From assembly GCF_900182745.1 (NCBI RefSeq), contig NZ_FXTY01000001.1:558001-622000 (forward strand): DNA of 64,000 bases. The letters are read 5' to 3'. Within the stretch, counting starts at the first letter, position 1, and every line of letters begins with the position of its first letter. The stretch comes from Shimia sagamensis. Lineage in GTDB: Bacteria > Pseudomonadota > Alphaproteobacteria > Rhodobacterales > Rhodobacteraceae. The notes beneath the pieces were generated by a model. That model had not been told where the DNA came from and did not search any database. It worked only from the letters and a program-made list of their open reading frames with translations. Positions 39,985-61,582 of the stretch are shown piece after piece. The position numbers and the translations under genes were made by a program.

Positions 39985-40863
39985 CTAGTTCTCCGTCAAA
40001 AGCGCGGCGAGGTAAGCCCCGTATCCAGATTTGCCAAGCATCTCTGCGCGGGTGTGCAACTCGGCGTCGCTGATCCAGCCTTTGCTCCAGGCGATCTCTT
40101 CGGGGCTGCCAACTTGTTGGCCCTGACGATCCGACAGGGTGCGCACAAAATTGCCCGCATCCAGTAGGCTGGCATGGGTGCCGGTGTCGAGCCAGGCGTA
40201 ACCACGTCCCATGAGCTCAACCTGTAGCGCGCCTTCGGTGAGGTAGGTTTCCAACAATGTGGTGATTTCCAGTTCACCGCGCTCTGATGGGGTGACGGTA
40301 CGCGCTCGCTCCGGCGCTGTGCTGTCCAGGAAGTATAAACCCGTAACCGCATAAGGAGATGGCGCCTTAGGGGGCTTTTCGACAATGCGACTGGCGGCAC
40401 CGGACTCATCAAAGGCAACCACGCCGTAGCGCTCTGGATCTGCTACACGGTAGCCAAACACCGTACCGCCAGACGTGCGCGCATCCGCAGTGGCGAGCTG
40501 TTCCGGCAGGCCGTGTCCGAAGAATATATTGTCACCCAACACCATGGCGCTGGGTGCGCCGTTCAGGAAATCTTCGGCCAAGAGATACGCCTGCGCAAGA
40601 CCGTCAGGGCGGGGCTGTTCGATGTAGGTGAGGCTGAGGCCCCATTGGTGGCCATTACCCAGGGTGCGTTTGAACTGCTCTTGATCGTGCGGCGTGGTGA
40701 TGATGGCAATCTCACGGATTCCGGCCAGCATCAGCACCGACAACGGATAGTAGATCATCGGCTTATCATAGATGGGCAAAAGCTGTTTGGAGATGCCGAT
40801 GGTTATCGGGTAGAGGCGCGAACCGGTTCCGCCTGCCAGAATGATGCCTTTGCGTGCCGTCAT
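39985..40863 (-). CDS. rfbA: Glucose-1-phosphate thymidylyltransferase
   Basis: The 292-residue enzyme makes dTDP-glucose, the first step to dTDP-L-rhamnose. It has the nucleotidyltransferase motif GIILAGGTGSRLYPIT, with KPMIYYPLSVLMLAGI and the allosteric-type VLGDNIFFGHGL. ATG 40863 overlaps the rfbD stop (ATGA); the frame is open 70 codons further but inside rfbD. Last gene of rfbC-B-D-A. It converges on mutS with 18 bases between. Confidence 0.95.
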   Translation of the reverse strand: MTARKGIILAGGTGSRLYPITIGISKQLLPIYDKPMIYYPLSVLMLAGIREIAIITTPHDQEQFKRTLGNGHQWGLSLTYIEQPRPDGLAQAYLLAEDFLNGAPSAMVLGDNIFFGHGLPEQLATADARTSGGTVFGYRVADPERYGVVAFDESGAASRIVEKPPKAPSPYAVTGLYFLDSTAPERARTVTPSERGELEITTLLETYLTEGALQVELMGRGYAWLDTGTHASLLDAGNFVRTLSDRQGQQVGSPEEIAWSKGWISDAELHTRAEMLGKSGYGAYLAALLTEN

Positions 40864-41723
40864 GTGTCGCCCTGCTCCAATTGCGTGATCACGCGGGTGA
40901 GTCCCGCCTGCCAGTCGGGAGGTGTAACGCCAAAATCCGACAGAAGCGTGGCGCAATCCAGTCGGGAATTGAGCGGGCGTTTTGCCGGTGTGGGAAAGCC
41001 GCTGCTGGGGATGTTGGTCACCATGACCGATCGGTTGGAAGATTGGAAAATGGCGCGGGCAAAATCTGCCCAAGTGGTCGTGGGGGTGCCCGCGTAATGA
41101 TACGTGCCGCTCGGTTTACCCTCCAAAAGGCCCAGCGCCATGGTGAGCAACGTTGCGGCGATGTCGCCTGCAGGGGTTGGGCCGCCGTGTTGATCCGCCA
41201 CAATGGAGAGGGCATCACGGCTCTCACTCAAACGCAGCATAGATTTCACAAAGTTTGTCCCATGTGCAGAAAACACCCAGCTGGTGCGCAGGATCACATA
41301 TTTGCCACCTGCAACCCGCACAGCCTCTTCGCCCGCCAATTTGCTGCGGCCGTATACGTTGATTGGGTCCGTCGGGTCGCTGGCCTCATGAGGCGTATCC
41401 CCTGCCCCGGCAAACACATAATCGGTGGAGATATGCAGGAACGGAAGGTTTCGCACAGCGGCAGCTTTGGCCATGGCGCCGGGGGCCGTTGCGTTGATGA
41501 TTTCCGCGATATCAGGCTCTGTTTCGGCTTGATCCACGGCAGTATACGCCGCCGCATTGATCACCACATCCGCATCTGTTGCCAGAATACGCTCAGCACA
41601 TTCGGACGGATTTTGCAGATCTGCCTCAGAGCGGCTCAGCGCTTCTATCTGGACATCTGGCCCAGCCAGAGCCTGCAGCTCCTGTGCGACCTGCCCGGTT
41701 TTTCCAAACACCAGAACTTTCAT
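40860..41723 (-). CDS. rfbD: dTDP-4-dehydrorhamnose reductase
   Basis: The 287-residue NAD(P)H-dependent enzyme performs the last step to dTDP-L-rhamnose. It has the Rossmann motif VFGKTGQVAQEL, INAAAYTAVDQAE, ISTDYVFAG and catalytic YxxxK in NVYGRSKLAGE. ATG 41723 has GAGGAG 5 bases upstream; GTG 41726 is one codon earlier. It lies 33 bases after rfbB and overlaps rfbA. Confidence 0.95.
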   Translation of the reverse strand: MKVLVFGKTGQVAQELQALAGPDVQIEALSRSEADLQNPSECAERILATDADVVINAAAYTAVDQAETEPDIAEIINATAPGAMAKAAAVRNLPFLHISTDYVFAGAGDTPHEASDPTDPINVYGRSKLAGEEAVRVAGGKYVILRTSWVFSAHGTNFVKSMLRLSESRDALSIVADQHGGPTPAGDIAATLLTMALGLLEGKPSGTYHYAGTPTTTWADFARAIFQSSNRSVMVTNIPSSGFPTPAKRPLNSRLDCATLLSDFGVTPPDWQAGLTRVITQLEQGDT

Positions 41724-41756
41724 CACCGCTCCTCATTGGTGTCGCGCTGCACGCGG

Positions 41757-42803
41757 TTACGCGCCTTTTGTTGTGCCGAGCCGGTGGCCCACACCATCAC
41801 GCGCCTGCAAAGCCTGCCACCAGTCTGGATTTTCCAGATACCAGTGCACGGTTTTTTCCAAGCCCTGTTGCAGCGTCACGGAGGGGCGCCAGCCCAGCTC
41901 TTCGCGCAGTCGCGTGGGATCAATGGCATAGCGGTAATCGTGGCCCGGACGATCCTGCACATAGTTTATTTGGCTGGAGTAGGGTCGATCTGCAGGACGC
42001 ATCCGATCCAGAATGGCACAGATGCTTTCCACAAGATCGATGTTGCGGGCCTCGTTTTCACCGCCAATGTTGTAGGTCCGACCATTTTGACTTTTCTCGA
42101 GAACGGTCAAAAGCGCGTCGGCGTGATCTTCCACATATAGCCAATCGCGCACGTTCAAACCTTGGCCGTAGACAGGGATGTTTTTGCCTGCCAGGGCGTT
42201 CAAAATCACAACCGGGATCAGTTTTTCGGGGAAATGGAACGGGCCGTAATTGTTGGAGCAGTTGGTGATAACAAATGGCAGCTGATAGGTTTCACCCCAC
42301 GCGCGGACCAAGTGGTCGCTGCTGGCTTTGGACGCAGCATAGGGCGAATTGGGTGCATAAGGGCTGTCCTCGGTAAACTGCCCCTCATCCTGTAACGTAC
42401 CGTAAACCTCATCGGTGGAAATGTGGTGGAACCGAAAACTGTCGGGCTTACCGTTAGTTTGCCAATAGGTTCGGGCGGCGTCCAACAGGGTGTACGTGCC
42501 ATTCACATTGGTGTCGATAAACGCACCGGGACCATCAATGGACCGATCCACATGACTTTCCGCCGCCAGATGCATCACCGCATCTGGCTGATGATCCGCA
42601 AAAATGCGCGCCAGAGCATCCGCGTCCCGAATGTCCGCGTGTTCAAAGATGTATAGCGGATTGTCCGCCACCGAGGCGACATTGTCGAGACAGGCGGCAT
42701 AGGTCAGCGCATCCAGATTGACAACGTGATGACCCCGCGCAACGGCCAGACGCACCACCGCAGATCCGATAAAGCCAGCACCGCCCGTTACAAGGATCTT
42801 CAT
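41757..42803 (-). CDS. rfbB: dTDP-glucose 4,6-dehydratase
   Basis: The 348-residue enzyme makes dTDP-4-keto-6-deoxyglucose. It has [37 protein letters not shown] with the catalytic Asp-Glu pair, and [11 protein letters not shown] with YxxxK. Its ATG overlaps the rfbC stop (ATGA). Second gene of the rhamnose operon. Confidence 0.96.
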
Positions 42804-43369
42804 TGGCGGCCATCCCATGCAAATACAGGCTCTATATCAGCCAAAAGAGGTGCGGATGCATCTTTATCACTGAGCGTAAACGAGGCGATACTTACGCCCC
42901 AATCAATGCCCAGCACGGGATCGTTGTGGGCAATCGCACGATCACAGTCTGGTGCAAAATAGTCGGTGCACTTGTAGACAATTTCCGTGTCCGGCGCACG
43001 GGTCACAAAGCCATGGGCAAAGCCCACAGGCACCAGCAACTGGCGACCATTTTCTGCTGTCAGCTCCGCGCCAACCCATTGGCCAAACGTGGGTGACCCG
43101 ACCCGAATGTCTAAAGCCACATCAAACAGTGCTCCGCGACCGCACCGCACCAATTTTGCCTGAGCATGCGGGGGCGTTTGATAGTGCAGACCGCGTATTG
43201 TGCCCACTTTGGAGGACAGGGAATGGTTGTCTTGTACAAACTCCAAATCAATCCCGTGTTCAGCCATCCGCCGCTTGTTCCAACTTTCGCTAAAGAATCC
43301 GCGACTGTCGCCAAACCGGTCTGGTGTGAGCAAAAGGACACCGTCCAATTTTGTGGTCTCAATTTTCAT
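42800..43369 (-). CDS. rfbC: dTDP-4-dehydrorhamnose 3,5-epimerase
   Basis: The 189-residue cupin enzyme has the family signatures [34 protein letters not shown] with the catalytic His, and [13 protein letters not shown] 43369 has AGAGGCG about 8 bases upstream; 16 earlier codons are open but have no start context. First gene of rfbC-B-D-A, divergent from the GlfT1-like gene 119 bases away, so rhamnose supply and that glycosyltransferase probably share a promoter region. Confidence 0.95.
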
Positions 43370-43488
43370 GGCCCGCGCCTCTAAACCCTTCTGCAAACAA
43401 TATGTGAGTGCTATCAATCTGTTGGTCGCTTGTCACGTCCGCAGCTTAGATTGACGCAGCCGGTTTGACAGCGCGCCCGGAAATTGGG

Positions 43489-44517
43489 ATGTGTTCAGCC
43501 ATATTGAAAAAGGTATTTTCTTTGCAGACCACGCAACCTCCAAAGCGGCTATTTGCCGTTGTTGTCACATTCAATCGCTTGGAAAAACTCAAGCAGACTG
43601 TCGCCCGGTTGCTTGAGTCCCCTACTCAGGACTTAGAAGGCGTGCTGGTTGTTAACAACGCCTCCACCGATGGCACGGATGTGTGGCTTGCGCAGCAAAC
43701 CGATCCCCGGCTGATTGTGGCGCACATGACTGAAAACCGCGGTGGCGCTGGCGGGTTTGAACATGGGATGCGACTGATTACCGAAACACATGATCCCGAT
43801 TGGATTGTTGTGATGGATGACGATGGTCGACCAACCTCCGACACCTTTGCCAAATTTCAAGCGATGGACGTGTCCGCCTGGGATGGGCTGGCGGCGGCGG
43901 TCTACTATCCGCATGGCGAGATTTGTGACATGAACCGCCCTTCTCGCAATCCATTTTGGCACAGGAAGGTGTTCTTAAATACGCTGCTTGGGCGTGGCGG
44001 ACGGGATGGGTTTCATATCACGCCGGAAGATTATCAAGGACAGCCAAAACAGATCGATGTGTCATCCTTTGTAGGGCTATTTGTGTCCCGCGTGGCGGTG
44101 GCAAAGGTGGGCTATCCCGACGGGCGGCTGTTTGTTTACGGAGAAGACGGGCTTTATACGCTGGGCTTGAGCAAGGCCGGGGGCCAAATTGGGTTCATCC
44201 CAGACCTCAAATTTGAGCATGATTGCTCCACGTTTGGCGAAGACGACCTACGGTTTCGACCGCTGTGGAAAGTCTATTACTATCACCGCAACCTTTTGAT
44301 GCTGTACCGCGAGGCAGCCGGCCTGTTTTTTGTGCCCCTGCTATTTTTGGTTCTGCCCAAGTGGCTGCTTAAAACCCGGCATCACAAAGGGGAGCAGCGG
44401 GTGTTCTTGAAACTGCTGCAACATGCGGTGGTCGACGGTTTGCTGCGCCGGACCTCGGTGCCCCACAAAACAGTATTGGACTGGGCAAAGGTGGCACCTG
44501 AGCAGTCAGAAATTTAG
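43489..44517 (+). CDS. Family 2 glycosyltransferase, GlfT1/rhamnosyl-type
   Basis: The 342-residue GT-A enzyme has VVVTFNRLEKLKQT, the donor-site VVNNASTDGT, ENRGGAGGF and the metal-binding DDD in WIVVMDDDGRP. A C-terminal hydrophobic patch (LFFVPLLFLVLPKWLL) suggests membrane association. ENRGGAGGF plus DDDGRP is the pattern I associate with mycobacterial GlfT1 and related galactofuranosyl/rhamnosyl transferases. The presence of glf and rfb genes supports such a donor. ATG 43489 is chosen; a TTG at 43465 is open. It overlaps the convergent kpsM-like gene by 4 bases. Confidence 0.8.
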   Translation: MCSAILKKVFSLQTTQPPKRLFAVVVTFNRLEKLKQTVARLLESPTQDLEGVLVVNNASTDGTDVWLAQQTDPRLIVAHMTENRGGAGGFEHGMRLITETHDPDWIVVMDDDGRPTSDTFAKFQAMDVSAWDGLAAAVYYPHGEICDMNRPSRNPFWHRKVFLNTLLGRGGRDGFHITPEDYQGQPKQIDVSSFVGLFVSRVAVAKVGYPDGRLFVYGEDGLYTLGLSKAGGQIGFIPDLKFEHDCSTFGEDDLRFRPLWKVYYYHRNLLMLYREAAGLFFVPLLFLVLPKWLLKTRHHKGEQRVFLKLLQHAVVDGLLRRTSVPHKTVLDWAKVAPEQSEI

Positions 44518-45338: not shown

Positions 45339-45423
45339 AGGTGAGATTTCCAATGCTAGCGTTTCGGAAATAAAGTATGCTAAAAAAGATCCAGATTTCA
45401 ATTATGCTTTGCAAAGGCACATA

Positions 45424-47766: not shown

Positions 47767-48876
47767 ATGACTAAGACCATCTACATCCATATCGGCCACT
47801 ACAAAACCGGCACCACGGCCCTGCAAGTCTTTATGAACAGCAACCGACAGGCCCTGAGAGACCTTGGCACCTTGTGGAACAAGGGTGTGGATTATCCAGA
47901 GCAGTTTTGCGATTTGGCAAAACACTCCAAACTGGCGTTTTCAATTTATCGGGAAGCCGGTGTGTCATCACTGATGTATGGGTTTCAAAACGATGTTCCT
48001 GCACAAACACGCTGGAACAACTTTTTTGACTATGTGCGTCAAAGCAAATGTCCTTCCGTGCTTATCAGCTCGGAAGAATTTATGCGTATGGGGGCCAACC
48101 CAGCAGCTACGCAATTGCTCAAGGACATCATTGCGCCCGTCAAAAATGAGTTTACCTTCAAGATCATCGCGTATTTGCGGCGACCAGACGCGCATTTGCG
48201 ATCGTGGTACAACCAATTGGTCAAGCTCAGGCAGCCGGTACCGGATTTTAACAGCACCGTTTGCGACGTAATGGAACCGATCCATTATGATTACAGCCTT
48301 GCTTTAAAGCCCTGGATTGAGATGTTTGGGTCAAAATCTGTCATTGTGCGCCCCTACACGGAAGCGCTGCGTGAAAACCACGAGTTGTTTAGAGACTTTC
48401 TAGGAGTTTTGGGCATTCCATTTGACGGCAAAAATGCCAAGCGTTGGAATGTGCCGGGTGACAGAATCAATCTGCGTATGGAAGATCGTTTTCTAGAGCT
48501 GACTCGCATCACGCAGAACATGGGCATGAAGGCGGGGCGGCCAAAACAGTTACAGGAGCGCTTTGCCAAACTGCTGGACGACCATCAGCTCGAAAATAGA
48601 AGTTCCCAAAGTTTTGATCATGTTGTTGAGACGTCCCAACGCGCCATGGAAACTTTGAAGGCCAGCCAAAACACGGCGCCATTGGCAGCTCTTTTTGCGG
48701 ATCACCTGCCAATTGCAGATGCGCCGGACAGAGCTGAAATGTTGAACCTCATACAATTGCTACTGCAGGAGAATGCCACGTTACGCAATCGACTGAACAA
48801 GCACACGCAAGAAGTGAACACCCGTTTGGACACAATCGAAAACCAACTTGGCACCAAAAAACCGGACTCTCAGTGA
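47767..48876 (+). CDS. Sulfotransferase-family protein
   Basis: The 369-residue protein starts MTKTIYIHIGHYKTGTTALQ, a 5'-phosphosulfate-binding loop (GHYKTGTT) of PAPS-dependent sulfotransferases. IIAYLRRPDAHLRSWYNQLV fits the 3'-phosphate-binding motif (R..D..S). The C-terminal ~45 residues are a predicted coiled coil (LIQLLLQENATLRNRLN). It probably sulfates a sugar of the surface polymer. Its stop overlaps the GTG of the next glycosyltransferase gene. Confidence 0.83.
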   Translation: MTKTIYIHIGHYKTGTTALQVFMNSNRQALRDLGTLWNKGVDYPEQFCDLAKHSKLAFSIYREAGVSSLMYGFQNDVPAQTRWNNFFDYVRQSKCPSVLISSEEFMRMGANPAATQLLKDIIAPVKNEFTFKIIAYLRRPDAHLRSWYNQLVKLRQPVPDFNSTVCDVMEPIHYDYSLALKPWIEMFGSKSVIVRPYTEALRENHELFRDFLGVLGIPFDGKNAKRWNVPGDRINLRMEDRFLELTRITQNMGMKAGRPKQLQERFAKLLDDHQLENRSSQSFDHVVETSQRAMETLKASQNTAPLAALFADHLPIADAPDRAEMLNLIQLLLQENATLRNRLNKHTQEVNTRLDTIENQLGTKKPDSQ

Positions 48877-50378
48877 AGATACTTTACTACAATTGGGTCG
48901 ATTACTTGGACTCCGAAAACCGCGGCGGCGGCGTTTCGATTTACCAACGTAACGTGATGGCGGAGCTGTCCCAGAGACCTGATGTTGAGGTCAGCTTTCT
49001 GACAGCCGGACTGTCGCATGATCTGCCTGCAAAGCAGCCTCGTTGGGAGCAGCTGGGGCATGGCAAAACCCGTGATCGACCCAACCACTATGAAATAGTC
49101 AATTCCGGTGTTTTGGCACCCGCGCACCATTGTTTTGGGGACCAAGCGCAGGTCAACCACAGTGCAACACAAGCAGCGTTTTTTGATTTCATCGAACAAA
49201 CCGGCCCTTATGACGTGATCCATTTCAACAACATTGAAGGGCTGCCGGTTTCCGCTTTGGCCCTCAAGGAGAAATGGCCAAACACCAAGGTTATTCTCTC
49301 TTTGCACAACTACTACCCCTTCTGTCCGCAGGTGAATTTTTGGTACCAAGAGAAAGAATCCTGCAGCGACTTTGCAGACGGGCGAAAATGCGCAGACTGT
49401 TTGACCGGTGGGCATGATCCACATCACATCAAACTGGCAAACGGATTGGCCTATCGTCTAAAGAAACGTGGCTTAGAACCTGGCAGCCGTGGATTTCGAT
49501 ATAGCTTTGTCTGGATCATGCGGCTTGGGCGACGCGCCGTTGGTCTGCAAAAACAGCTGAAACAGCTGATCAAGCCAAAAACAGGCACAACACCCGTGCT
49601 GAATCAAGACAGCGCCCAGGTTGCCGGAGCGTTTGCAACCCGGCGTGCAGAGATGGTGGAGAGCATCAATCAAAATTGCGATTTGGTGCTCTGTGTGTCC
49701 GATGCGGTTCGGAAAATTGCGGTTCAATACGGATTGCGGCCCGAAACGTGCACAACCAGCTACATCGGCACCCAGCAGGCGGAGGCCTTTTCCCGAACTC
49801 CCCCGCGAAAGCGGCTATTGCGTGAGGATGGCACATTCACGTTGGGTTTCTTGGGATACATGCGGCGCGACAAAGGGTTCATGTTTCTTCTCGAGGCGTT
49901 GGAGGCGCTTCCGGAAGAGTTGGCAACCCGGGTCCGTTTTACCGCCGCTGCCAGACAGGGCGACGCGGAAACCATGGCACGGTTAGGCAAGCTTGGTGAT
50001 CGACTTGCGGAGCTGACACATGTGGATGGGTATTCCCACGATGATCTGGAGGCACTTTTGGCGGGCATTGATGTTGGAGTGGTTCCAGTGCTTTGGCACG
50101 ACAACCTACCGCAGGTCGCCATTGAGTTACACAGCCGTCATATCCCGCTGCTGACCGCGGATTTGGGCGGCGCGCAGGAACTGGCAAACTGCCCCGACAT
50201 GGTGTTTCCGGCGGGAGATGTTCAGGCATTTTGCGCTCGGATCGCCGCAATTCTGAATGGCGAGATCGATATGGACGCCTACTGGCGGTCCGCGCGGGCA
50301 CCAACCACGATGGACACCCACATTCGTGAGCTGCTGACCCACTACGCTGCAAATCAAGACTCTAAACGGACACCCTAG
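48873..50378 (+). CDS. Family 4 glycosyltransferase
   Basis: The 501-residue GT-B protein has an N-terminal acceptor domain with NRGGGVSIYQRNVMAEL and LSLHNYYPFCPQVNFW. The donor domain has FTLGFLGYMRRDKGFMFLLE, DVGVVPVLWHDNLPQVAIEL and TADLGGAQELA, replacing the usual E-x7-E region. A Cys cluster (ESCSDFADGRKCADCLTGGH) in the first half is like other capsule GT4 enzymes and may bind metal. GTG 48873 overlaps the sulfotransferase stop. It converges on the giant glycosyltransferase gene with a 9-base gap. Confidence 0.85.
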   Translation: MKILYYNWVDYLDSENRGGGVSIYQRNVMAELSQRPDVEVSFLTAGLSHDLPAKQPRWEQLGHGKTRDRPNHYEIVNSGVLAPAHHCFGDQAQVNHSATQAAFFDFIEQTGPYDVIHFNNIEGLPVSALALKEKWPNTKVILSLHNYYPFCPQVNFWYQEKESCSDFADGRKCADCLTGGHDPHHIKLANGLAYRLKKRGLEPGSRGFRYSFVWIMRLGRRAVGLQKQLKQLIKPKTGTTPVLNQDSAQVAGAFATRRAEMVESINQNCDLVLCVSDAVRKIAVQYGLRPETCTTSYIGTQQAEAFSRTPPRKRLLREDGTFTLGFLGYMRRDKGFMFLLEALEALPEELATRVRFTAAARQGDAETMARLGKLGDRLAELTHVDGYSHDDLEALLAGIDVGVVPVLWHDNLPQVAIELHSRHIPLLTADLGGAQELANCPDMVFPAGDVQAFCARIAAILNGEIDMDAYWRSARAPTTMDTHIRELLTHYAANQDSKRTP

Positions 50379-50387
50379 CGACACATC

Positions 50388-53300
50388 TCACTTTGGCGTT
50401 GTCTGAGAGCCAAAAATCTTTTGCGCGAAGGGCGTGTCTGCCCAATGCGCAGACAGGTCCGGATCGTAGATCACACTGCGCCCTTCAGAGGCCAACGCCA
50501 GGTATTTCTGGTACTCCTCGGCGTCATTGAAGTGCTGACGGCGGGCGACCTCTGTTTGCGCTTTGCGCCGGAAATCCGCGTTGTATTTGAAATGCGCAAA
50601 AATCAATTCACGGTCAGCCAAACGCGCGTCTCCAACATAGTGCAAACCTGCGGACAAACGCATCCAAGGTTGGTACCGCATCAAGGCCAGTTTCTGCGCC
50701 ACAAATAGATTGGGGCGTGAGCCAGGGATTAGGCGGTGCCGCAAGGCGCTGGTCCAGGTTGGACGATCCGAAAACGGCCCAAAAACAGGCAGATTGGACA
50801 GGAAAGGCACACGGTCACAATAGCCGGCCTCGTCAAATGGATTCCCAGTAAAGCGCGCATCCTCAAGCGGGCCTTTGGGATACATATCTAACATAAACAA
50901 CCGGACAGCCTCAGCCTTCGCGAAGTCAGGCTCAGAAAGCAATTCCGGCAATGTCTGGGTCTGATTTTCTTGCCACACAAGCAGCTCATCCGCATCTGCA
51001 ACAATGCTCCACTTGTCGACCCTGTATTCCGCCAGAAGTGCCTGCTGCCAAGCGACGCCGTAGTGAGACAGCTTATAGTCGGTATCCACAGAAAAGACGG
51101 AGACGTCTGGCTGTTCAGCGAGATATTCCAACGTTCCGTCATCAGAGGCATTGTCCGCGATCAGGAACGCGCCAACACCCAACTTGCGATAGTGCTTTAG
51201 AAATTGCGGCAGCATGAACATTTCATTTCGCATGCAAGCCACCAGCGCGACCTCCGCGTGACGGGCCTCGTGCAATCGTGCTTCTGGCGACACCAACTCC
51301 AACGCATTGCTTTGGTAGCCCAGGCGCACTTTTTGATAGCTGGGCCAAATCTTTTTGGGCGTCAGCTCAAACTTGTTCAGCCTGGCAACAGCTTCCTGCT
51401 GACCATCCGTTGTATCCATGTGCACCAGATGTACGGGCGCTGATTTGCTGCTGTTAAAACCATTCTGCCATGACGGCACAGGAATGCCATCGCCATGCGC
51501 ACGGCGGCGCACGGTTACGGAATAGTCCTCATCCACCACAGAAATGCCGCTCATGGCCAACAAATCTCCCAGCAACTTGTCCTCCATAAAGGACACTTGG
51601 ATTAGCTGCTGACCGGCCGACGTTTGCGCCGCGATCAAAGCCGCCGACATGGCTTTGCGACTGAGTGCATAACCAGACCCACCGTCTGCATAAGTGGACG
51701 GTTCCGGCGATTTGTCGAGGTCCATACGGCCGCGTTGCGTCGTGGATTTTTGCTGATGCCAAATCCGATCGAGTTGGCCGACTCCCCGTGTGAGCCGACG
51801 ACCGTAGTAGTCAAATTTCCGGTAATTCAGGGATTGAAAAAACAATGGGGCGTTGAAAAAGCAATCATCATCCACTTTCACCATATGGGCAAAATCAGTG
51901 GAGTTGTGCACCCATTCAATGGCCGCGAGGGTTTTTAGTGGAAGCCCTTCGTAGTCGTCCGGCGCATCCAGATGCAGCACATCTCCGTGACGCTGGCCAT
52001 CCCCGTCACCAACAATCACGACATAGGGCACGCCCAGAGCCTGCAGAAGGCGCAACCAGCCATCACGCAGTACCGGAATGCGCGAATTCAGGTAAGGTTT
52101 GCAGGAGAACACAGTGACGATTGTGTCATAAAGCGGTGATCCGGAAAGCGCGCCCTCCTTGGCGGGAACCGGCAAGGTCTTCCCCTTGGCTCCCCCCAAC
52201 AGCAAGCGCTCCAACTCGTGGGCCACATCCTGGCTGTGCCCACTTCGAAGGAGAGCGGCTAGCGTCATCTGGACCGGAGTGCTGAACATAATAGCCTGCT
52301 GATCAGCCTGTCCCAGAGATGCAATTTGTGTGCGAACCCAATGCACCACGGTTGCCACATGAGGCTGATTTTGACGTGTCCTGCCAAAACAAGTGATCAG
52401 AATGACGCCTAATGCAATGCCCAGAAAGTGGGATCGACGGTCGCCAAGAACGCCACAACGACGCAGGAGAGACTCCAGATTTTCTGGATCGACGACCTCT
52501 TCTGGATTGGAGAGCACGCGGGCAATGTCTGCCGCAACTGTCCTCTGCTCCGTAGGAAAAGGCGCCCGGGACAAGTTTTGCAGCAATTGCGGACCCCGAT
52601 GCGCAACCAATTCCGCCAGAGAGGCCTCAGGTGTCGCTGCGCCCGGAGCCGCCATGAACCGTAAGGCTGCCAACGCAGGATCTTTATGTGCCTGCTGCAA
52701 AGTCGCCAAATCAAGGGAAGTGTTTTGGGGCAGCGGAACCCCTGCGGAACCAAACACCTCACGCCGGACTCTGGGCGCATCCGGACAGTTCACATTGTCA
52801 AAAAACATAAGCGCCACATGGGCCGCCTGTGGATCATGTGCGTGAGATTGGATTTTGTCGTATTGGGTTTTTGCCGTTTGCAACTCTGAGGCCATTGGAG
52901 CGTCATTGCGATCTGTTAAAAGCTCCCAAAACAGGCGGGACAGCCCGTAATTGCGCGCACAAAAGTGCAACACGCGGCGCCTCTGTCGTTCTGGCAACAC
53001 ATCATGTTGACCCGCCAAGTCCACAGCTGCCAAAGTCAGCTCCCGGCAATGTGCCCGCTCCCAATAGTTTGGCGTCCGCCTTGATATGAATGCCTCAAAG
53101 AGAAACAACAGATGTGCACGGTGCCTGCTGGACATTGTCTGCGAGCGAAGTGCCTGTCGAACTACCCAAGCGATGGACGTGGTGGATATCCAATCCTGCC
53201 TCGGCTTCACCAACGATCTGAATGTCGCCAGCAAGGCCTCCATGTCGCCCTGCAAAAACAAGAATGGCAAGACAACCGAATCGTGCCAAGACTGCCCAAT

Positions 53301-56300
53301 TGGCACAAACGACCGCACGCCCGCGGATTTTGCCAAGGCAAAGAACGACGCAAAATCCTGGTCGTCACGCGCAAAAAACTCGCCCAGCGTGAGATAAACA
53401 TGTTGCACAGCAAAGGCTGACACCGGCAGGTGCGCCACAATTTCCAGGGGCGGTTTTCCACTGTTGTCGGCCAGATTTGCGGCCAGCTCTGCCAAAGCAG
53501 CGTCAATTTCCCGAGTGATCGGGTCCGGCCCGGCGGCAGGGTTGATAGATGTCAGAGGTGCGCCTTGTCCTAAGCCCACACCGGTGTCAGCACCAAGCAA
53601 AAAGGCGTCCAACCCGAAATGCGAGGCGAGGGTTTGCACTGTGTTTTGTTCAGACCTGTTTAGTAAAGGATATAGACGGGCGTGAACGATGTGCTCCAAC
53701 ACGGTCAGCACCAACGTTGTGTCTGCACAAGAGAGCTCGCGGGCCAACAGCGTTTTTATATGCCCAACCAAATCGACCTGCGACAGAACCAAAGGCGCGC
53801 CAACAGGGTGCCCGTCGATGTTTTCGAGTTGAAGGTGCAAGGAAGCGTCCGTGCCTTCCGGCAAGGTGGTCCAAAGGCGGGCTGGCAGCAGAGCCCTAAC
53901 TCCAGGCTGCTGTGGCAAACTCTCCAGCGCGGTCACAGGAAGCAAGGATCCGGAAGTGAGGTCTCTAATGTGAAGCCCGTCAGAAGCGTGTGCGGCTTGC
54001 AATGTCAGCCTTGGGTCAAGAGACAGATCCGACACTGGAGGCTTGGGAAGAATTTCTAAGGGACGGATGTCCCCTTGCGGCTCGATTAAGGTGAGACCCA
54101 GCCCTTCTGCGTCAGGTTTGTGAAACTGGGTGTCCACCGTCACAGTGCAAAACTCTTGACCGTCCAAGACGAGATGCACGGTGTGGGCCTCAATTACGAT
54201 GCGTACGGTCAGGATCGATGCTGCAAAAGCAAAAGGCCATGATCGTTCCTTGCCCCAACCATCGTTGTCTTGATGGTTGAAAACAATGCAGCACTCCTCC
54301 GGGCGAAACGAAAAATGTACCGGAACGGTCAGGCCGTCAGCCGCCAGAAAGTTCAAATTGGCATACGCTTTTTGTGAAAAGTCAGCGATACAAGTGAATA
54401 CACTGTGCGATGCAGCCGGGAAAAACCATAGCGTGCTGTTTTCATCTCTGGCGCGCAGAACATCTACCCGCGCGTCCAGTTGTTTTTGCTGGGTGAGGAG
54501 CGATCGGGACCGCGGCCGGCCAAATGATCTTGCCAATCGCCCGACTGGGTCAAAGATCTTTTCCAGACTTATAACATGCGGATGGTCAAAACTGGCTTCC
54601 TTAGGAGTGTTGCCAAGCAGGCCACGGCGGGCAGCGGCCCACACCAAGCCAATATCCTTTTGCAAAGCTTTTCGCCCGCCTCTAAGTGACTGCTCCCTTT
54701 GGAAAGCGCGGCCGAATAACCGTCGCTGCCATCCTTTGGGCAGGCGATGTTTGGCAGCGTCCGGCAAGGCCCGAACCAAAGCATCATGCTCTTTTCCAAT
54801 AACGCTGACAGGCTCATTGTCTGGCGCTGGAAATGAGATCGACATTCCAGCCCAGGGTTCATACACCACACGAGGCGCCAGCACCGCCGCACCAATCTGC
54901 AAGGCCCATCCGGTCCGAGGCGACTTGGTAAGTGTCAGCTTGTGATTGATCAGAAAAGAGCGATCAAACATACGTGCGGACAGCTCGGGCAACAGCGACA
55001 GTGCCGCAACGCCATCCATTGACAACAGCCCTTTGACGAGAGGTTGGTTGCTGAAAGCCCCCAGATCAGAAAAACCGGTGCAATAACCGGGCGCTGTGTC
55101 AGAGCAATGGCTGGGTGTCGCATAAGCCGTCAATCCCACTTGGGCATCCTGGCGCAACATTAGCTCAACCATCTGAAACAGTGAGGCAGGCTTAAGTTCA
55201 ACGCCAGGTCGCAGGATGCAGACAAAGCGCCCTCTAATCTCTAGCCACAGCCGCTCGGGCAACAGCCGTCCCAGATCTAACACCCGCAGGTTTGGGTGTA
55301 GTTTCTCCAGTGTTTGCGCCACGGGCGTGGATCGGCACAGAAGAACAACCTCCAATCCCGGACCAATCAGTTGGGCAAGACTGTCCAGTGTGGTTTGAAG
55401 ATCTGCCGATGGCGTAGAGCTGCATTCGATGCACACTGACAGGGGCAAATCACCGGCCATCTCCACCCCCCAACTGAGCGCTGTGTCGCTGTCCCAGTCG
55501 GTGGCATACGTCAGGCCTTCACGTTGAAGAAACTGTGCCGACTCTGCGGCAAACCGAGCACGCCGAGCGGGGTGCCGTAGGCTCAAGCTGCGTTCAAAAA
55601 GCAAACGGCTGGCAATCTGCTCATAGGCCTCGCCCGCGCCGTCAAAGGGCCCCAGTTCCATAATGCCACGCAAACGTCGCAACACGTCCATTTGTTCAAA
55701 CACACGATCGCTATCAGATGTGGTGATTTGCCCCTCCCGTCCCTGCGTTTGCCAATAGAGCGGACGCGGGAGATGCAAAAGATGATCGGTCTGGGCGGCG
55801 GCCCGCTCAAAGAAGCTGTGATCCTCAAACCAGGTGCCTTCATCAAACCGCAAACCGTCGATCAAGCTGCGCCGATACAGCTTATTCCAGGCAGAGGGAA
55901 AATGGCGGACCACCTGTTGCCACTCTTCGAAAGGATAGCGACGTGGCACAGAGGATTCGTGAAATGCCGATGCGTCATGGATGGCAGAATGCACCGAATA
56001 GTTGCCGTCCGCATGGCAGCTCTTCACTGCACAAGCGACCCAGTCACCGTTTGTAGTCTCTAAAACGCTGTAAAGCGCTTCGAGGAATTCTGGGGCAATG
56101 CGATCGTCACTGTCGACGAACGAAATGACCTCCGCTTTTGCGAGGTCCAGACCGGTGTTTCGGGCCCCGGAGAGACCTTTGTTGGGCTGTGTAACAAAAT
56201 GAAAGCGCGCGTCGGTTTCACAAAACGCAGCCGCCAAACTGCCACTTTCGTCCGTGGAGCCATCATCCACCACGATAACCTCAAAATCTGTCCAAGACTG

Positions 56301-56414
56301 CGCTTGGATGCTGTGCAGGCAAGCAACCACATGGTCAGACACGTTAAAGACCGGGACAATGACCGAAATCGCCGGGGTCTTTTGTTGAGATTTTCTTGAT
56401 GAGAGAGCGGGCAT
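50388..56414 (-). CDS. Giant multidomain glycosyltransferase: GT2, galectin-like, GT31-like and GT2/GT92-like domains
   Basis: A single uninterrupted 2008-residue frame. Numbering here is from the TTG six codons upstream at 56432, an alternative start. Order: GT2 domain (about 20-330; SVIVPVFN, VVDDGSTDESG, FVDSDD at 105-110); a degenerate second glycosyltransferase-like stretch (330-540); galectin-like domain (about 664-790; HFSFR at 706-710, IVFNH, WGKER at 726-730, PF, GDIRPLEI); a long helical region without motifs (about 890-1430); GT31-like domain (1433-1650; HGDVLHLDAPDDYEGLPLKT, KVDDDCFFN, YADGGSGYALSRKA, MEDKLLGD); C-terminal GT2/GT92-like domain (1726-1960; ACMRNEMFMLPQFL, DNASDDGT, DADE). 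No signal peptide or membrane helix is seen, so it should act in the cytoplasm on a lipid-linked glycan. Donors and linkages are inferred only. Confidence 0.9.
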   Translation of the reverse strand: MPALSSRKSQQKTPAISVIVPVFNVSDHVVACLHSIQAQSWTDFEVIVVDDGSTDESGSLAAAFCETDARFHFVTQPNKGLSGARNTGLDLAKAEVISFVDSDDRIAPEFLEALYSVLETTNGDWVACAVKSCHADGNYSVHSAIHDASAFHESSVPRRYPFEEWQQVVRHFPSAWNKLYRRSLIDGLRFDEGTWFEDHSFFERAAAQTDHLLHLPRPLYWQTQGREGQITTSDSDRVFEQMDVLRRLRGIMELGPFDGAGEAYEQIASRLLFERSLSLRHPARRARFAAESAQFLQREGLTYATDWDSDTALSWGVEMAGDLPLSVCIECSSTPSADLQTTLDSLAQLIGPGLEVVLLCRSTPVAQTLEKLHPNLRVLDLGRLLPERLWLEIRGRFVCILRPGVELKPASLFQMVELMLRQDAQVGLTAYATPSHCSDTAPGYCTGFSDLGAFSNQPLVKGLLSMDGVAALSLLPELSARMFDRSFLINHKLTLTKSPRTGWALQIGAAVLAPRVVYEPWAGMSISFPAPDNEPVSVIGKEHDALVRALPDAAKHRLPKGWQRRLFGRAFQREQSLRGGRKALQKDIGLVWAAARRGLLGNTPKEASFDHPHVISLEKIFDPVGRLARSFGRPRSRSLLTQQKQLDARVDVLRARDENSTLWFFPAASHSVFTCIADFSQKAYANLNFLAADGLTVPVHFSFRPEECCIVFNHQDNDGWGKERSWPFAFAASILTVRIVIEAHTVHLVLDGQEFCTVTVDTQFHKPDAEGLGLTLIEPQGDIRPLEILPKPPVSDLSLDPRLTLQAAHASDGLHIRDLTSGSLLPVTALESLPQQPGVRALLPARLWTTLPEGTDASLHLQLENIDGHPVGAPLVLSQVDLVGHIKTLLARELSCADTTLVLTVLEHIVHARLYPLLNRSEQNTVQTLASHFGLDAFLLGADTGVGLGQGAPLTSINPAAGPDPITREIDAALAELAANLADNSGKPPLEIVAHLPVSAFAVQHVYLTLGEFFARDDQDFASFFALAKSAGVRSFVPIGQSWHDSVVLPFLFLQGDMEALLATFRSLVKPRQDWISTTSIAWVVRQALRSQTMSSRHRAHLLFLFEAFISRRTPNYWERAHCRELTLAAVDLAGQHDVLPERQRRRVLHFCARNYGLSRLFWELLTDRNDAPMASELQTAKTQYDKIQSHAHDPQAAHVALMFFDNVNCPDAPRVRREVFGSAGVPLPQNTSLDLATLQQAHKDPALAALRFMAAPGAATPEASLAELVAHRGPQLLQNLSRAPFPTEQRTVAADIARVLSNPEEVVDPENLESLLRRCGVLGDRRSHFLGIALGVILITCFGRTRQNQPHVATVVHWVRTQIASLGQADQQAIMFSTPVQMTLAALLRSGHSQDVAHELERLLLGGAKGKTLPVPAKEGALSGSPLYDTIVTVFSCKPYLNSRIPVLRDGWLRLLQALGVPYVVIVGDGDGQRHGDVLHLDAPDDYEGLPLKTLAAIEWVHNSTDFAHMVKVDDDCFFNAPLFFQSLNYRKFDYYGRRLTRGVGQLDRIWHQQKSTTQRGRMDLDKSPEPSTYADGGSGYALSRKAMSAALIAAQTSAGQQLIQVSFMEDKLLGDLLAMSGISVVDEDYSVTVRRRAHGDGIPVPSWQNGFNSSKSAPVHLVHMDTTDGQQEAVARLNKFELTPKKIWPSYQKVRLGYQSNALELVSPEARLHEARHAEVALVACMRNEMFMLPQFLKHYRKLGVGAFLIADNASDDGTLEYLAEQPDVSVFSVDTDYKLSHYGVAWQQALLAEYRVDKWSIVADADELLVWQENQTQTLPELLSEPDFAKAEAVRLFMLDMYPKGPLEDARFTGNPFDEAGYCDRVPFLSNLPVFGPFSDRPTWTSALRHRLIPGSRPNLFVAQKLALMRYQPWMRLSAGLHYVGDARLADRELIFAHFKYNADFRRKAQTEVARRQHFNDAEEYQKYLALASEGRSVIYDPDLSAHWADTPFAQKIFGSQTTPK
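51483..52136 (-). other. GT31-like (beta-1,3-galactosyltransferase) domain inside the giant glycosyltransferase
   Basis: Residues about 1433-1650 match Galactosyl_T (PF01762) landmarks. These are D-x-L-x-x-D then DY-x-x-L-x-LKT-x-x-x-x-x-W (DVLHLDAPDDYEGLPLKTLA), the DDD metal motif in KVDDDCFFN, Y-x-x-G-x-GY-x-LS (YADGGSGYALSRKA) and an ED motif (MEDKLLGD). Family members transfer galactose or GlcNAc in beta-1,3 linkage. Confidence 0.78.
54063..54443 (-). other. Galectin-like carbohydrate-binding domain inside the giant glycosyltransferase
   Basis: Residues about 664-790 follow the galectin (PF00337) pattern. Galectin-1 His44, Arg48, Asn61, Trp68 and Glu71 line up with H706, R710, N719, W726 and E729; Asn46 is replaced by S708. 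Next come PF in the PFAF segment, LTVRIVIEAHTVHLVLDGQE where galectins have FELSILV...VNGxxF, and a closing GDIRPLEI where galectins have GDVQLQSV. This is pattern matching by eye, not a profile search. Confidence 0.7.
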
Positions 56415-56597
56415 AAAATCTATTAGGTGCAAGAAAGGTATATGTGTTGTTCCTTACCACGAAGGCTGGGTAAAGGGGGGCTGTTCATTTTCTAGGAAAA
56501 ATTCCGGTTCACACGGGATCGATGCACGAGAATTGTGAGTGGGACTTTACCCATAACGCGACAACAAGGGGCGGATACTGCTTTTGAATGTCGAGGT

Positions 56598-56681: not shown

Positions 56682-57458
56682 ATGAGTACCCCTTTTGTCA
56701 TCTGGACGATGCAACGCACCGGCGGGACAACATTGACAACTCTTTTGAAGAGTTTTTCTGAGTATCCCAGCCTGCAGCATGAGCCATTCAATGTGGAACG
56801 CAAACTTGGGTGGATCCTGCAAAACTGGGGCGCAAATCGGGACACAGCAAAGATGCAATCTGACATCTCTGCTGCGCTATCAGATCGCCCGATCATCAAG
56901 CATTGTTACGAGCTGGTACCGGAAGCGCTGAACCTAGCACTTATGAAGGCCACGTCAGAGTTGGGCTATCGACACATCATTTTGGACCGACGTGCGGAAG
57001 ACTTACGCATTCTCTCATTGGAACTGGCGAAACAGACAGGTGCCTGGGGAAAAACTGCGGCAGAAGATGTATATCGAGACATTAAATCTGGGGAGAAGAC
57101 TCTCGCACCTCTCAGCTTACAGCAGGCACTGGACCACCTAGACCGTTGCCATACAAGAAGATTATCGCTCGCCAAGCAAATGAAGGAGAGTGGTTTGTCA
57201 CCGCTCGTTGTCCATTTTGAGGATGTCTATACTGACCCGATTGCAGGGAAAAAGCGCGTCCGGGAGATCCTGAGTTTTGTGGAGCTCAACCCGCTTGATT
57301 TCCAAAATGGCCGCCAGAGAGTTGCCAAAGCACTTAGGACTCAAGGTCAAAATACGGAGAGCATCATGGACCTCCTGCCCAACTTGAGTGTGGTCAAAGA
57401 CAAGTTGCAAACTGCACAAAAAAGTCAGTCCTTCAACTTTGAGACCTGTTTCCTCTGA
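56682..57458 (+). CDS. Sulfotransferase-family P-loop protein
   Basis: The 258-residue protein opens with FVIWTMQRTGGTTLTTLL, a 5'-phosphosulfate-type loop. A helix-rich core with IILDRRAEDLRILSLELAKQ follows, in the place of the 3'-phosphate-binding motif, and SPLVVHFEDVYTDP, typical of the Stf0/sulfotransferase group. It lies between the giant glycosyltransferase and glf, so a polysaccharide acceptor is likely. The motif match is weaker than for the gene at 47767. Confidence 0.72.
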   Translation: MSTPFVIWTMQRTGGTTLTTLLKSFSEYPSLQHEPFNVERKLGWILQNWGANRDTAKMQSDISAALSDRPIIKHCYELVPEALNLALMKATSELGYRHIILDRRAEDLRILSLELAKQTGAWGKTAAEDVYRDIKSGEKTLAPLSLQQALDHLDRCHTRRLSLAKQMKESGLSPLVVHFEDVYTDPIAGKKRVREILSFVELNPLDFQNGRQRVAKALRTQGQNTESIMDLLPNLSVVKDKLQTAQKSQSFNFETCFL

Positions 57459-57554: not shown

Positions 57555-58772
<1,218 letters not shown>

Positions 58773-58867: not shown

Positions 58868-59464
58868 TTAGCCTGCATAGCTGGAGAGCGTGGGCACTTT
58901 GGCGATCTCACCCTCACCGTCGGGCAACACAAACAGACGCAGGTCGTGAAGTGTCACATCAAAACTTGAAGACGGCAGCGCAACAACAAGTGTGTGGTAG
59001 CCTTCTTCCCCTGCCACGGCGTCTACATGTGACACTTTGTGAAGCACGGTTTGAATGCTGCGTTTTGCGGAGCCAACAAGCTTTTCCGTCAAAGGGGTGT
59101 CAGTAATGCTTTCCCCTCGGGACGTGCGAATAAACAATGGGAATGTCAGGCCGTCAGCGCCGGACACGTCCGCAACTACCCCAATCAAATCACCCACCGA
59201 CGTGCTGCCATGCTCAAGCGCAACATTAAATGAGTTCCACTGTGGTTTCCCACTTATTTGAGCACGCAGCTCAAACAGCTGGCCGTCTTTGGATGTGACC
59301 TGCAGGTCCAATTCCTTGACCCTATCATCCCAGCTGAAATATGCCCCTGGAACAATATGCCCTTCGTTTTCTATAGGGGTAGACAGGGAGGTATCACGCA
59401 ATTGCGCCATCACTTCGCTGGCACGCACTTCAATCGAATATGCCATAACCTCAGAAATCTCCAA
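58868..59464 (-). CDS. Uncharacterised beta-rich protein of the polysaccharide locus
   Basis: The 198-residue protein has no signal peptide or membrane helix. The sequence alternates short beta strands (LDLQVTSKDGQLFELRAQIS, FNVALEHGSTSVGDLIGVVA, HTLVVALPSSSFDVTLHDLRL) and looks like a beta-sandwich, possibly carbohydrate-binding. I recognise no family. TTG 59464 with AAGAG upstream, or ATG 59446, may be the start. It stands alone on the minus strand between glf and the coiled-coil protein gene. Confidence 0.65.
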   Translation of the reverse strand: MEISEVMAYSIEVRASEVMAQLRDTSLSTPIENEGHIVPGAYFSWDDRVKELDLQVTSKDGQLFELRAQISGKPQWNSFNVALEHGSTSVGDLIGVVADVSGADGLTFPLFIRTSRGESITDTPLTEKLVGSAKRSIQTVLHKVSHVDAVAGEEGYHTLVVALPSSSFDVTLHDLRLFVLPDGEGEIAKVPTLSSYAG

Positions 59465-59659
59465 AAAATTCTCTTACCAAATATAGCCTTTCAGGCCTAA
59501 CCCGACTATTGAACGGATAACCATACGATTGTCGAGGCTGAGGCATGAGATTCATGGATTTTCTCCCATCTCTGCTAACCACTAGACGAAAATTCATCGA
59601 TGTGGTTTCAATTTGAGAAACTGGCTGAAAAGCCTCCGCAAATATTTTAGGATAAATAG

Positions 59660-60718
59660 ATGTCCGCCAAGTCAGTTACGAACCCAAATGCGTTAAGCTC
59701 AGAGAACAAGACCGTGTCGATTATTTTTGATGCGGATATGCGCCTCTTTGGCACGGCCTACGCCAAAGCCCTCCAGGAAACATCAAACTCTTTAGACGTC
59801 CGAGCAATAGAAGGGCTCGCAACAGGGCTCCCCGAGTGCAAAGATGGTCATGTTGTGGTTTTGGTTCCACCATTTGAATACATCGTGGCGTCGTCTCTCT
59901 CAAAAGGCAATTCGCCAGAAGATGCTCTCGCGGAGTGGACCCGCTACGCCACTATGCTGGTCAAAAGACACCGATATTATCCTAGTCGCACAACTTTCTT
60001 GGATTCCCGGTTCCAAAGCCTTGCGCCAAAGAAGATCTTAAAACTGCTCCAAGACGTATTGCAGATTAAGCTATCGCTCCCCAAAACGACCGTCGCCTTT
60101 GATGCCCCGCGTATTGATCCACTGTATGAATTGGTCGCTCTTGGCATGCTACAACGCGATACTCATGCTGAAAAACTCCGTGCTCTTGTTGTGGGCGCGA
60201 GCGACCAGGACACCACGAAAACTTGGCAAGACAAAGGTGCGAACCTGATTGCCGAGCGCAATATTCTGCAAGAAGCGTTGGACATTGCGCAAACCCAAAT
60301 TGCCGCGCCAACAGGCGAACAAGGTTCGACTTCACCCCGTGAACTTCAACTGGAAGAAGAACGCAGTCTGCTTTGCGAGGATATCACACAGATGCAGCAG
60401 CGCCTGGAACGTGAAGTCGCGAACGTGAGGATGCTACAGTTGTCCAAGGATGCTGCGGAAAGGCACTTGGAAAAAATGGCAAACCAAATTCAATTGCGCG
60501 AGGTTGTTCTCGGCAAGGCTCTCTTGGCCGAGGGAAGGCGCCACGACTCCATTTTAACCTCCCTGCGGGAGGAGCAGGCAGATCTGCTTGGAAAACGCGA
60601 TCAACTCGAACACGAGGTCGCCGAGCGTCAGGAGGAGCTACAACGCGTGTATGCTTCGAAGTCTTGGCGTGTCACTGAGCCGATCCGCGCTTTGCGTCGA
60701 TCATCGTCAGACTCCTGA
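59660..60718 (+). CDS. Uncharacterised protein with C-terminal coiled coil ending in a glycosyltransferase-type tail
   Basis: The 352-residue protein has an N-terminal alpha/beta domain (about 18-180; VSIIFDADMRLFGTAYAKAL, VVVLVPPFEY). A long coiled coil follows (about 225-335), ending YASKSWRVTEPIRALRR. The SKSWR(V/L)T-x-P(I/L)R tail is common just before glycosyltransferase or sulfotransferase domains in surface-polysaccharide proteins; here the protein stops there. AGGA is 8 bases before the ATG. The next gene starts 6 bases after its stop. Function unknown; it may be a scaffold or a detached domain of a larger enzyme. Confidence 0.75.
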   Translation: MSAKSVTNPNALSSENKTVSIIFDADMRLFGTAYAKALQETSNSLDVRAIEGLATGLPECKDGHVVVLVPPFEYIVASSLSKGNSPEDALAEWTRYATMLVKRHRYYPSRTTFLDSRFQSLAPKKILKLLQDVLQIKLSLPKTTVAFDAPRIDPLYELVALGMLQRDTHAEKLRALVVGASDQDTTKTWQDKGANLIAERNILQEALDIAQTQIAAPTGEQGSTSPRELQLEEERSLLCEDITQMQQRLEREVANVRMLQLSKDAAERHLEKMANQIQLREVVLGKALLAEGRRHDSILTSLREEQADLLGKRDQLEHEVAERQEELQRVYASKSWRVTEPIRALRRSSSDS

Positions 60719-60724
60719 TCCCCT

Positions 60725-61582
60725 GTGGCTTGGGTTTTCATTGATGCACAACATGGCCTGTGCAATCGCCTTCGTGCCATGGCTTCAGCAGCGTCAATAG
60801 CGCAGAATACCGGGCGTGAGCTTGCCGTCATTTGGCGACAAGACGAGCATTGTCAATGTCGGCTACGCGACCTGATCGACTATGATGGCGTTCTGATAGA
60901 AGACGACAACGCTGACCTCATGCGGCGGTATGCAGCCGTTGAATACAACTATATGGAAGTCGAACCAAATTCCTGTTTTGCAGCGCCAATCCTTGAGGAT
61001 GCGGAACGATACGAGGGTCAAGATATCTACGTCCGATCCGCCTATTCGCTGCAAGGTCCACACGTAGATTTTAACGATGAACAGAGTTTTCTTCGCCAAT
61101 TGGAAGTCGCGTCGCCCGTGCAAGACCTGATCGCCCAAGTGCGTCACCCCAATCAGCTGGCAGCACACATCCGCGCTATGTCTGCCGTGGATTTTGAACA
61201 CCTGCCCTATGAAGCAGCCGCAAACTGGCCCACGGAGCGCCACACAGAACTCATGGAATGGCGCAGGAAAAGTCAGCCCGCACGGTTTATGGATCGAATC
61301 GATCAGATTTTCGAACAAGGCGATGCGCAGACATTTTTTGTAGCTGCGGATCATCCCGACACTTACGCAAGTTTGCACACACGGTACGGAGACCGAATGG
61401 TCTGTTTGAAACGGGACCTTTTTGACCGCTCTCCACGGCAATTGCAGTATGCTCTGGCTGACCTTATATTGTTGACGGCGGCTGACCGTTTTCTGGCCAG
61501 CACCTACAGCTCATTTTCTGATATTGCCCAGCGTCTTGCGCCTTGGGGACGACCAATTGAGAAGAGTGGAATCGACTTCTAA
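60725..61582 (+). CDS. Fucosyltransferase-like protein (GT11/O-FucT/NodZ superfamily)
   Basis: The 285-residue protein starts FIDAQHGLCNRLRAMASAAS, matching the G-x-x-NR-L motif of the fucosyltransferase superfamily. LAAHIRAMSAVDF holds the position of the donor-binding HxR, and LTAADRFLASTYSSFSDIAQ matches the conserved C-terminal S-x-S region. It likely transfers a 6-deoxy sugar or similar. Start GTG 60725, 6 bases after the preceding stop, suggests coupling. No GDP-fucose synthesis gene is in the window. Confidence 0.7.
   Translation: MAWVFIDAQHGLCNRLRAMASAASIAQNTGRELAVIWRQDEHCQCRLRDLIDYDGVLIEDDNADLMRRYAAVEYNYMEVEPNSCFAAPILEDAERYEGQDIYVRSAYSLQGPHVDFNDEQSFLRQLEVASPVQDLIAQVRHPNQLAAHIRAMSAVDFEHLPYEAAANWPTERHTELMEWRRKSQPARFMDRIDQIFEQGDAQTFFVAADHPDTYASLHTRYGDRMVCLKRDLFDRSPRQLQYALADLILLTAADRFLASTYSSFSDIAQRLAPWGRPIEKSGIDF

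Follow-up and report, generated by a model that had tools for sequence, protein, structure and literature searches.

Galectins are usually regarded as a eukaryotic family of lectins. Here we ask whether a galectin-like pattern within a large bacterial glycosyltransferase marks a true member of that family, and what such a domain could do in the enzyme. The window analysed is a stretch of 64,000 nucleotides from Shimia sagamensis (contig NZ_FXTY01000001.1, positions 558,001 to 622,000), and the gene in question occupies 50388..56414 on its minus strand. It encodes a multi-domain glycosyltransferase of 2008 amino acids from an ATG start; a TTG at 56432 would extend it to 2014 amino acids. The original prediction gave the length correctly as 2008 residues but numbered the ligand residues (706, 710, 719, 726 and 729) after the 2014-residue TTG frame, which shifts them by six. 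The coordinates proposed for the domain, 54063-54443, follow the same longer frame; residues 655-790, nucleotides 54045..54452 of the minus strand, describe it better. The numbering used below is that of the 2008-residue protein.

Galectin domain and architecture of the protein

The pattern consists of H700-F-S-F-R704, N713, W720-G-K-E723, P727-F728 and G781-D782, and this signature had been read correctly from the sequence. By itself the motif is weak evidence, a loose form of it arising in 90 of 10,000 shuffled versions of the sequence. Profile PF00337 scored 25.7 bits for the whole protein and 30.6 bits for the segment, the curated cut-off being 22.1; at E ≤ 10 it was the sole Pfam family listed for the segment. 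When the segment was compared with the PDB by phmmer, galectins headed the 37 matches (best 4.1e-5). A family profile was built from 65 of the 76 galectin domains of the family, 59 of these 65 being matched by PF00337 at E ≤ 0.1. This profile reached galectins of the PDB at 4.1e-21 at best; among the 60 matches listed of a total of 199, all were galectins or galectin constructs with the sole exception of a 'putative fiber protein' (2wsu), an adenovirus fibre with galectin domains. The AF2 model of the segment is all-β (pLDDT 91.7, pTM 0.86), and the best 50 of its 388 Foldseek matches (E ≤ 0.001) were all galectins or galectin-related, with a probability of 1.00 and TM-scores by query of 0.56-0.71. 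In the profile alignment, H700, R704, N713, W720 and E723 align with the corresponding residues of solved galectins. The original prediction, namely that a galectin domain lies within a bacterial glycosyltransferase and should give a significant PF00337 match and a galectin β-sandwich, was borne out by both of these and by the profile matches to the PDB. From the profiles and the predicted fold, we regard it as nearly certain that the protein holds a true galectin-family domain.

Other origins of the pattern were considered and rejected. A chance motif is ruled out by PF00337, the PDB profile matches and Foldseek, and a different concanavalin-like domain by the absence of a rival Pfam family at E ≤ 10 and by the best 50 fold matches, which are galectin or galectin-related. 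Eukaryotic contamination does not agree with a gene that lies inside a 963-kb contig, recurs in dozens of related genomes and is found on plasmids. With respect to phage origin, a search of 50,697 phage records with the segment gave no match at E ≤ 0.1.

The protein, encoded throughout on the minus strand, begins with a GT2 domain (residues 17-186, 55857..56366; PF00535, 1.2e-34), which is followed by the galectin domain. An α-solenoid, recognised in the AF2 model (residues 879-1406, 52197..53780), separates the galectin domain from a GT31 domain (Galactosyl_T; Pfam match at residues 1474-1628, 51531..51995; PF01762, 1.1e-12, 48.6 bits against a cut-off of 23) that contains the motifs DDD at 1515-1517 and E-D at 1611-1612. 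The C-terminal part carries a GT2-like domain with the sequence DADE (residues 1729-1826, 50937..51230; PF13704, 5.4e-26). The earlier identification of the protein as a glycosyltransferase was right, but it had overlooked the GT31 domain and, with it, the resemblance to plant proteins that join a galectin domain to GT31. A model of residues 655-1715, built from an alignment of the window protein with 40 relatives (pLDDT 89.0, pTM 0.87), comprises in order the galectin domain, a small β region, the long α-solenoid and GT31. Human B3GalT6 (9sp7) ranked first among its Foldseek matches (E 3.1e-6, probability 1.00, TM 0.61 by target length), and the 50 PDB matches listed consisted of B3GalT6, 47 galectins and, at lower probability, 2 ryanodine receptors. 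The sequence profile of the GT31 region also matched B3GALT6 (9sp7), at 1.9e-8 over 60 columns. The predicted fold of this domain is β-1,3-galactosyltransferase-like, and family profile, DxD-type motif, E-D motif and modelled fold together assign it to GT31 as a putative catalytic domain.

A hydropathy scan of the protein and its relatives, in itself not decisive, revealed no clear membrane anchor. The maximum of the 2008-residue protein (1.76) coincides with the opening strand of the GT2 domain (residues 15-33); in the 43 short forms of the family described below, the maximum ahead of the galectin motif is 1.51, and some of the long forms have their peak close to the N-terminus (2.09 in L048). 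The protein is probably cytoplasmic.

Ligand site and linkage to GT31 across the family

Relatives were collected by scanning the named genomes with patterns for GT31 only, and the best 80 of 127 were kept. Four of the 80 are cut by contig ends, leaving 76 assessable, and two (L036 and L092) come from one assembly and carry an identical motif. A galectin domain is present in 75 of the 76 and all five ligand residues in 72 of the 76, a ratio that leans upwards, as the 80 relatives were ranked with a query containing the galectin domain. Among the 72 with the full motif, 71 have it in one frame with GT31, the other being L095, in which the frame is broken. Broken reading frames, due to decay or assembly error, occur in L095 and also at L016:47-4271. 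The proteins of the relatives span about 1,330-2,060 amino acids from stop to stop, and of the 78 family ORFs with 1000 amino acids or more (the window and one fragment counted), 77 contain the GT31 motif DDD and 77 the motif E-D.

The linkage was also seen in genomes of the same family. Among 295 of them PF00337 gave 10 at E ≤ 0.01 and 8 over the cut-off, and PF01762 was found in 9 of 295 genomes drawn in the same way, the window's own genome being included in each case. All eight genomes over the PF00337 cut-off fall among the nine with PF01762, and in each the two profiles match one and the same locus. In the remaining genome, G099, a galectin domain with all five residues lies in the same frame; PF00337 misses divergent members such as this one. 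The galectin domain lies upstream of GT31 at 9/9 PF01762 loci, at eight in one open frame and at G216 in broken frames that are all on one contig. This is a cleaner figure than 75 of 76, because the 80 relatives were ranked with the galectin-containing query. One PF00337 candidate, L020/G279 (17.1 bits, in a frame of 12,907 amino acids), was discarded as spurious, with 8.2 bits for the family profile and 3.1 for the best domain. In a control with PF00337 on 14 well-known genomes, none was over the cut-off; six matched at E ≤ 1 and none at the stricter limits used in the genome surveys.

Pairwise distances of the galectin domain correlate with those of GT31 (Mantel r 0.56) and of the solenoid (r 0.73; p 0.001 each), which is consistent with the three having travelled together. 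The N-terminal part of the protein varies. When long forms are defined by more than 500 amino acids ahead of the motif and short forms by a motif within the first 120, the 72 full-motif ORFs (71 loci and the window) divide into 24 long, 43 short and 5 between, and the N-terminal GT2 domain is present in 24/24, 0/43 and 0/5 of them, respectively.

The ligand-site block H700-x-S702-x-R704 ... N713 ... W720-x-x-E723 (54246..54317, minus strand) is near-invariant in 76 sequences including that of the window. Over all 76 rows the tryptophan is present in 76, the histidine, S702 and N713 in 75 each, the arginine in 74 and the glutamate in 73. In 72 non-redundant rows the frequency of the top residue is 100% for W720, 98.6% for H700, S702 and N713, 97.2% for R704, 95.8% for E723 and F689, and 94.4% for N686, the median over 133 columns being 36%; the five ligand residues (96-100%) rank within the eight most conserved of the 133 columns. 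Over 41 rows, sequences are on average 29% identical pairwise in the galectin domain, 27% in the solenoid and 59% in GT31. Near-invariant residues in a drifting scaffold look like the pattern of a functional binding site, and it is likely that the galectin domain contains a functional glycan-binding site.

The ligand contacts of galectin-1 are His44, Asn46, Arg48, Asn61, Trp68, Glu71 and Arg73. Five of these seven are present here and near-invariant, in agreement with the original prediction when galectin-1 numbering is applied; Asn46 corresponds to Ser702 and Arg73 to Ser725, and position 725 is variable over the 76 rows. With serine in place of Asn46 and no conserved residue at the Arg73 position, binding of the lactose type cannot be taken for granted, and the specificity of the domain may differ from a lactose-like one. 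The best-scoring solved relative, the first domain of a Toxascaris galectin, also has H-x-S-x-R, and according to the structure title a double mutant of this galectin was deposited with bound glucose. Three members of the family, L046, L071 and L102, retain a recognisable galectin domain and have lost some ligand residues; in L105, no galectin domain was detectable. Judged from these four sequences, the ligand site can be dispensed with.

Locus context and distribution

The gene lies in what appears to be a polysaccharide locus. On the minus strand, 39985..43417 holds rmlA, rmlD, rmlB and rmlC for dTDP-rhamnose (PF00483, PF04321, PF16363/PF01370 and PF00908), which are 59-74% identical to rfbA, rfbD, rfbB and rfbC of a Tropicibacter oceani plasmid (L106). 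They are followed by a GT2 glycosyltransferase (43465..44517, plus strand; PF00535, 2.1e-16), an ABC-2 exporter permease (44514-45401, minus strand; PF01061), a sugar-transporter/PCP-like protein (45226-46968, plus strand; without a Pfam match at 0.001, but sharing 62% identity with an L106 protein named 'sugar transporter') and an exporter ATPase (46987-47658, plus strand; PF00005). Next come a sulfotransferase-like protein (47767-48876, plus strand), which has no Pfam support and shares 44% identity with an L106 protein named 'sulfotransferase family protein', and a GT4-type glycosyltransferase (48873-50378, plus strand; PF13692). On the other side of the galectin gene are a possible sulfotransferase (56682..57458, plus strand; PF13469 at 0.0018, below the cut-off, the L106 homologue being annotated as hypothetical) and a UDP-galactopyranose mutase, Glf (57645..58772, plus strand; PF03275, 4e-79). 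The sulfotransferase names of both proteins are weak. Three ORFs downstream of glf (58871-61579 of the window) gave no Pfam match at 0.001. From this gene content, the product is probably an ABC-exported, capsule-like polysaccharide, in which galactose is plausible.

The genes from rml through to the one with the galectin domain are collinear with those of L106 (NZ_CP124619.1, 49.7 kb) at 44-74% identity; that plasmid carries the export/galectin block and rfbCBDA, and its galectin gene is named 'glycosyltransferase'. In the flanks of the 80 loci, which extend to at most 8 kb and are often cut, tblastn at E ≤ 1e-8 found homologues, counted with no background rate, of GT4 at 51, ABC ATPase at 34, PCP-like protein at 34, ABC permease at 32, GT2 at 32, Glf at 28, the sulfotransferase-like proteins at 20 and 24, rmlB at 14, rmlC at 9, rmlD at 3 and rmlA at 2.

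In tallies that all count the centre genome, and with draws that overlap, the galectin domain was found in 5/101 genomes of the order draw and 2/398 of the phylum draw, in at least 3/385 of the class draw when the family profile was used (at most 10 candidates scored per genome), in 2/4 genomes of the order of G1059 and 1/388 of the phylum draw around G1059, and in 7/25 genomes of the genus. A protein of an uncultured Shimia (L026) is close to that of the window, at 90% identity, and judging from record titles the named relatives presumably belong mostly to Rhodobacterales. The gene is also present on plasmids of Tropicibacter and Sulfitobacter; three plasmid records that match the galectin segment call it just 'glycosyltransferase'. 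Its patchy spread within the genus and its occurrence on plasmids point to a mobile accessory locus. Relatives outside Rhodobacterales are L105 (Sulfurisoma), L078 (Methylobacterium sp. Leaf118) and L081 (labelled Bordetella petrii).

Possible roles and relation to known systems

We think it rather probable that the galectin domain is part of a multi-catalytic polysaccharide polymerase (GT2 - galectin - solenoid - GT31 - GT2-like), with binding of the nascent chain or acceptor as the best mechanism; processivity may be one form of this role. The domain would bind a β-galactoside-type unit of the nascent chain and hold the chain near the GT31/GT2 active sites. Sugars could thereby be added repeatedly, or to the right acceptor only, and the chain would then leave through the neighbouring ABC exporter. 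Binding of a sugar, the choice of that sugar, the holding of an acceptor and processivity are all inferred; lectin activity and the holding of a galactose-containing chain, which had been suggested together with processivity at the outset, find circumstantial support because the ligand residues are near-invariant, the domain is linked to GT31, and the locus is of capsule type with a UDP-galactopyranose mutase. Against this role stand the changes at Asn46 and Arg73 and the four relatives noted above that have lost ligand residues or the whole domain. Glf, too, points to galactofuranose, and a preference of galectins for this form of the sugar is not known; Glf is moreover absent from the examined flanks of 52/80 loci, rmlA from 78 and rmlD from 77.

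The same conservation can be read in other ways. The domain could be a lectin that acts as a terminator or gate, reading a finished or modified (e.g. sulfated) chain end and either stopping synthesis or handing the chain to the exporter, by analogy with Wzt. The ABC exporter and sulfotransferase-like genes of the locus would suit this reading, and the near-invariant serine in place of Asn46 suggests an altered specificity. We nevertheless consider it unlikely, as the galectin domain is fused to transferases and not to the exporter ATPase, while the sulfotransferase names are weakly founded and homologues of the two genes occur in the examined flanks of no more than the 20 and 24 loci given above. 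The changes at Asn46 and Arg73 would also agree with a domain that is a galectin by descent and now binds another ligand, such as a different polymer sugar, a primer attached to a lipid or a nucleotide sugar, and the Toxascaris galectin with its H-x-S-x-R sequence and glucose-bound double mutant could be cited in favour. With the five remaining contacts near-invariant and a GT31 domain of β-1,3-galactosyltransferase-like fold in the same protein, a change of ligand of this kind seems more unlikely still. Least of all do we expect a structural spacer or a protein-docking module that has no glycan ligand. Ligand residues have been lost in 3/75 domains, and a precedent exists in an animal galectin that, according to the title of PMC5772480, does not bind β-galactosides; however, the ligand residues are among the most conserved positions in a domain whose mean pairwise identity is 29%, whereas a spacer should show the reverse, and we regard this explanation as highly improbable.

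The domain resembles animal and fungal galectins (galectin-3, -7, -8, -9, LEC-6, Tl-gal and CGL2) in its profile match, predicted β-sandwich and the His/Arg/Asn/Trp/Glu set at the ligand positions. It differs from them in being bacterial and a module of a large glycosyltransferase, and in the replacement of Asn46 by serine and the variable Arg73 position. Human B3GALT6, also of GT31, gives the best fold match in the PDB to the model of residues 655-1715 and shares the 60-column profile match; it is a Golgi enzyme and is not known to have a galectin domain. Two further systems invite comparison. Wzt, too, belongs to a polysaccharide pathway that depends on an ABC exporter and has a module for glycan binding, but this carbohydrate-binding module, which serves ABC-dependent O-antigen export, belongs to another domain family and sits on the exporter ATPase, not on a polymerase. 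In ppGalNAc transferases a lectin domain steers a glycosyltransferase to its acceptor; these enzymes are eukaryotic, and the domain is ricin-type, of unrelated fold.

The closest parallel in architecture is offered by the plant GT31 β-1,3- and Hyp-O-galactosyltransferases, which combine PF00337 and PF01762 in one polypeptide with the galectin domain first (PMC5225481, PMC4431829). In a survey of 153 genomes, 52 of them bacterial, the galectin-GT31 fusion is reported from land plants only (PMC5225481). Six Arabidopsis proteins with both domains are described in PMC4431829, which also gives a predicted type II membrane topology for GALT2 and GALT5, with one N-terminal membrane segment ahead of the domains and a gap of about 47-73 amino acids between galectin and GT31. 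Unlike GALT2 and GALT5, the bacterial proteins have a solenoid of about 530 amino acids between the two domains, one or two extra glycosyltransferase domains, and no anchor apparent in the hydropathy scan, which is not decisive. Because of the long solenoid and the extra domains, we do not claim the bacterial family as the plant type. In a literature search that covered papers accessible outside subscription, we recognised no paper on a galectin encoded by a bacterium, which is not to say that none has been published.

Such a family in bacteria, its ligand site conserved, could serve as a tractable system in which to test the part that a galectin plays in a glycosyltransferase. It also bears on the origin of galectins and gives a handle on the surface polysaccharides of marine Rhodobacterales. 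It is almost as likely as not, and we put it forward tentatively, that bacteria possess their own class of galectins, which would be not secreted lectins but modules fused to glycosyltransferases that read or hold the growing chain, and that the pairing with GT31 known from plants arose twice or passed between kingdoms, in one direction or the other; the eukaryotic sequences aligned were those of the PDB matches. As part of this tentative reading, Alphaproteobacteria would contain at least three architectures, galectin-solenoid-GT31-GT2-like, galectin-GT2-GT25 and, with weaker matches, galectin-GT2. The second is represented by L111:7475-11143 and L112:4686-8531, from another alphaproteobacterial family, in which the galectin domain is N-terminal and PF00337 scores 37.1 and 31.2 bits, both above the score of the window. 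The third is found in two proteins of about 700 amino acids (L019:5001-7112 and L021:9570-11654) with an N-terminal PF00337 match and GT2. Their PF00337 scores of 16.8 and 16.3 bits are below the cut-off; the family profile matches them at 7.4e-9 and 1.2e-6, respectively, in a search restricted to a handful of proteins, and L021 departs from the W-x-x-E spacing.
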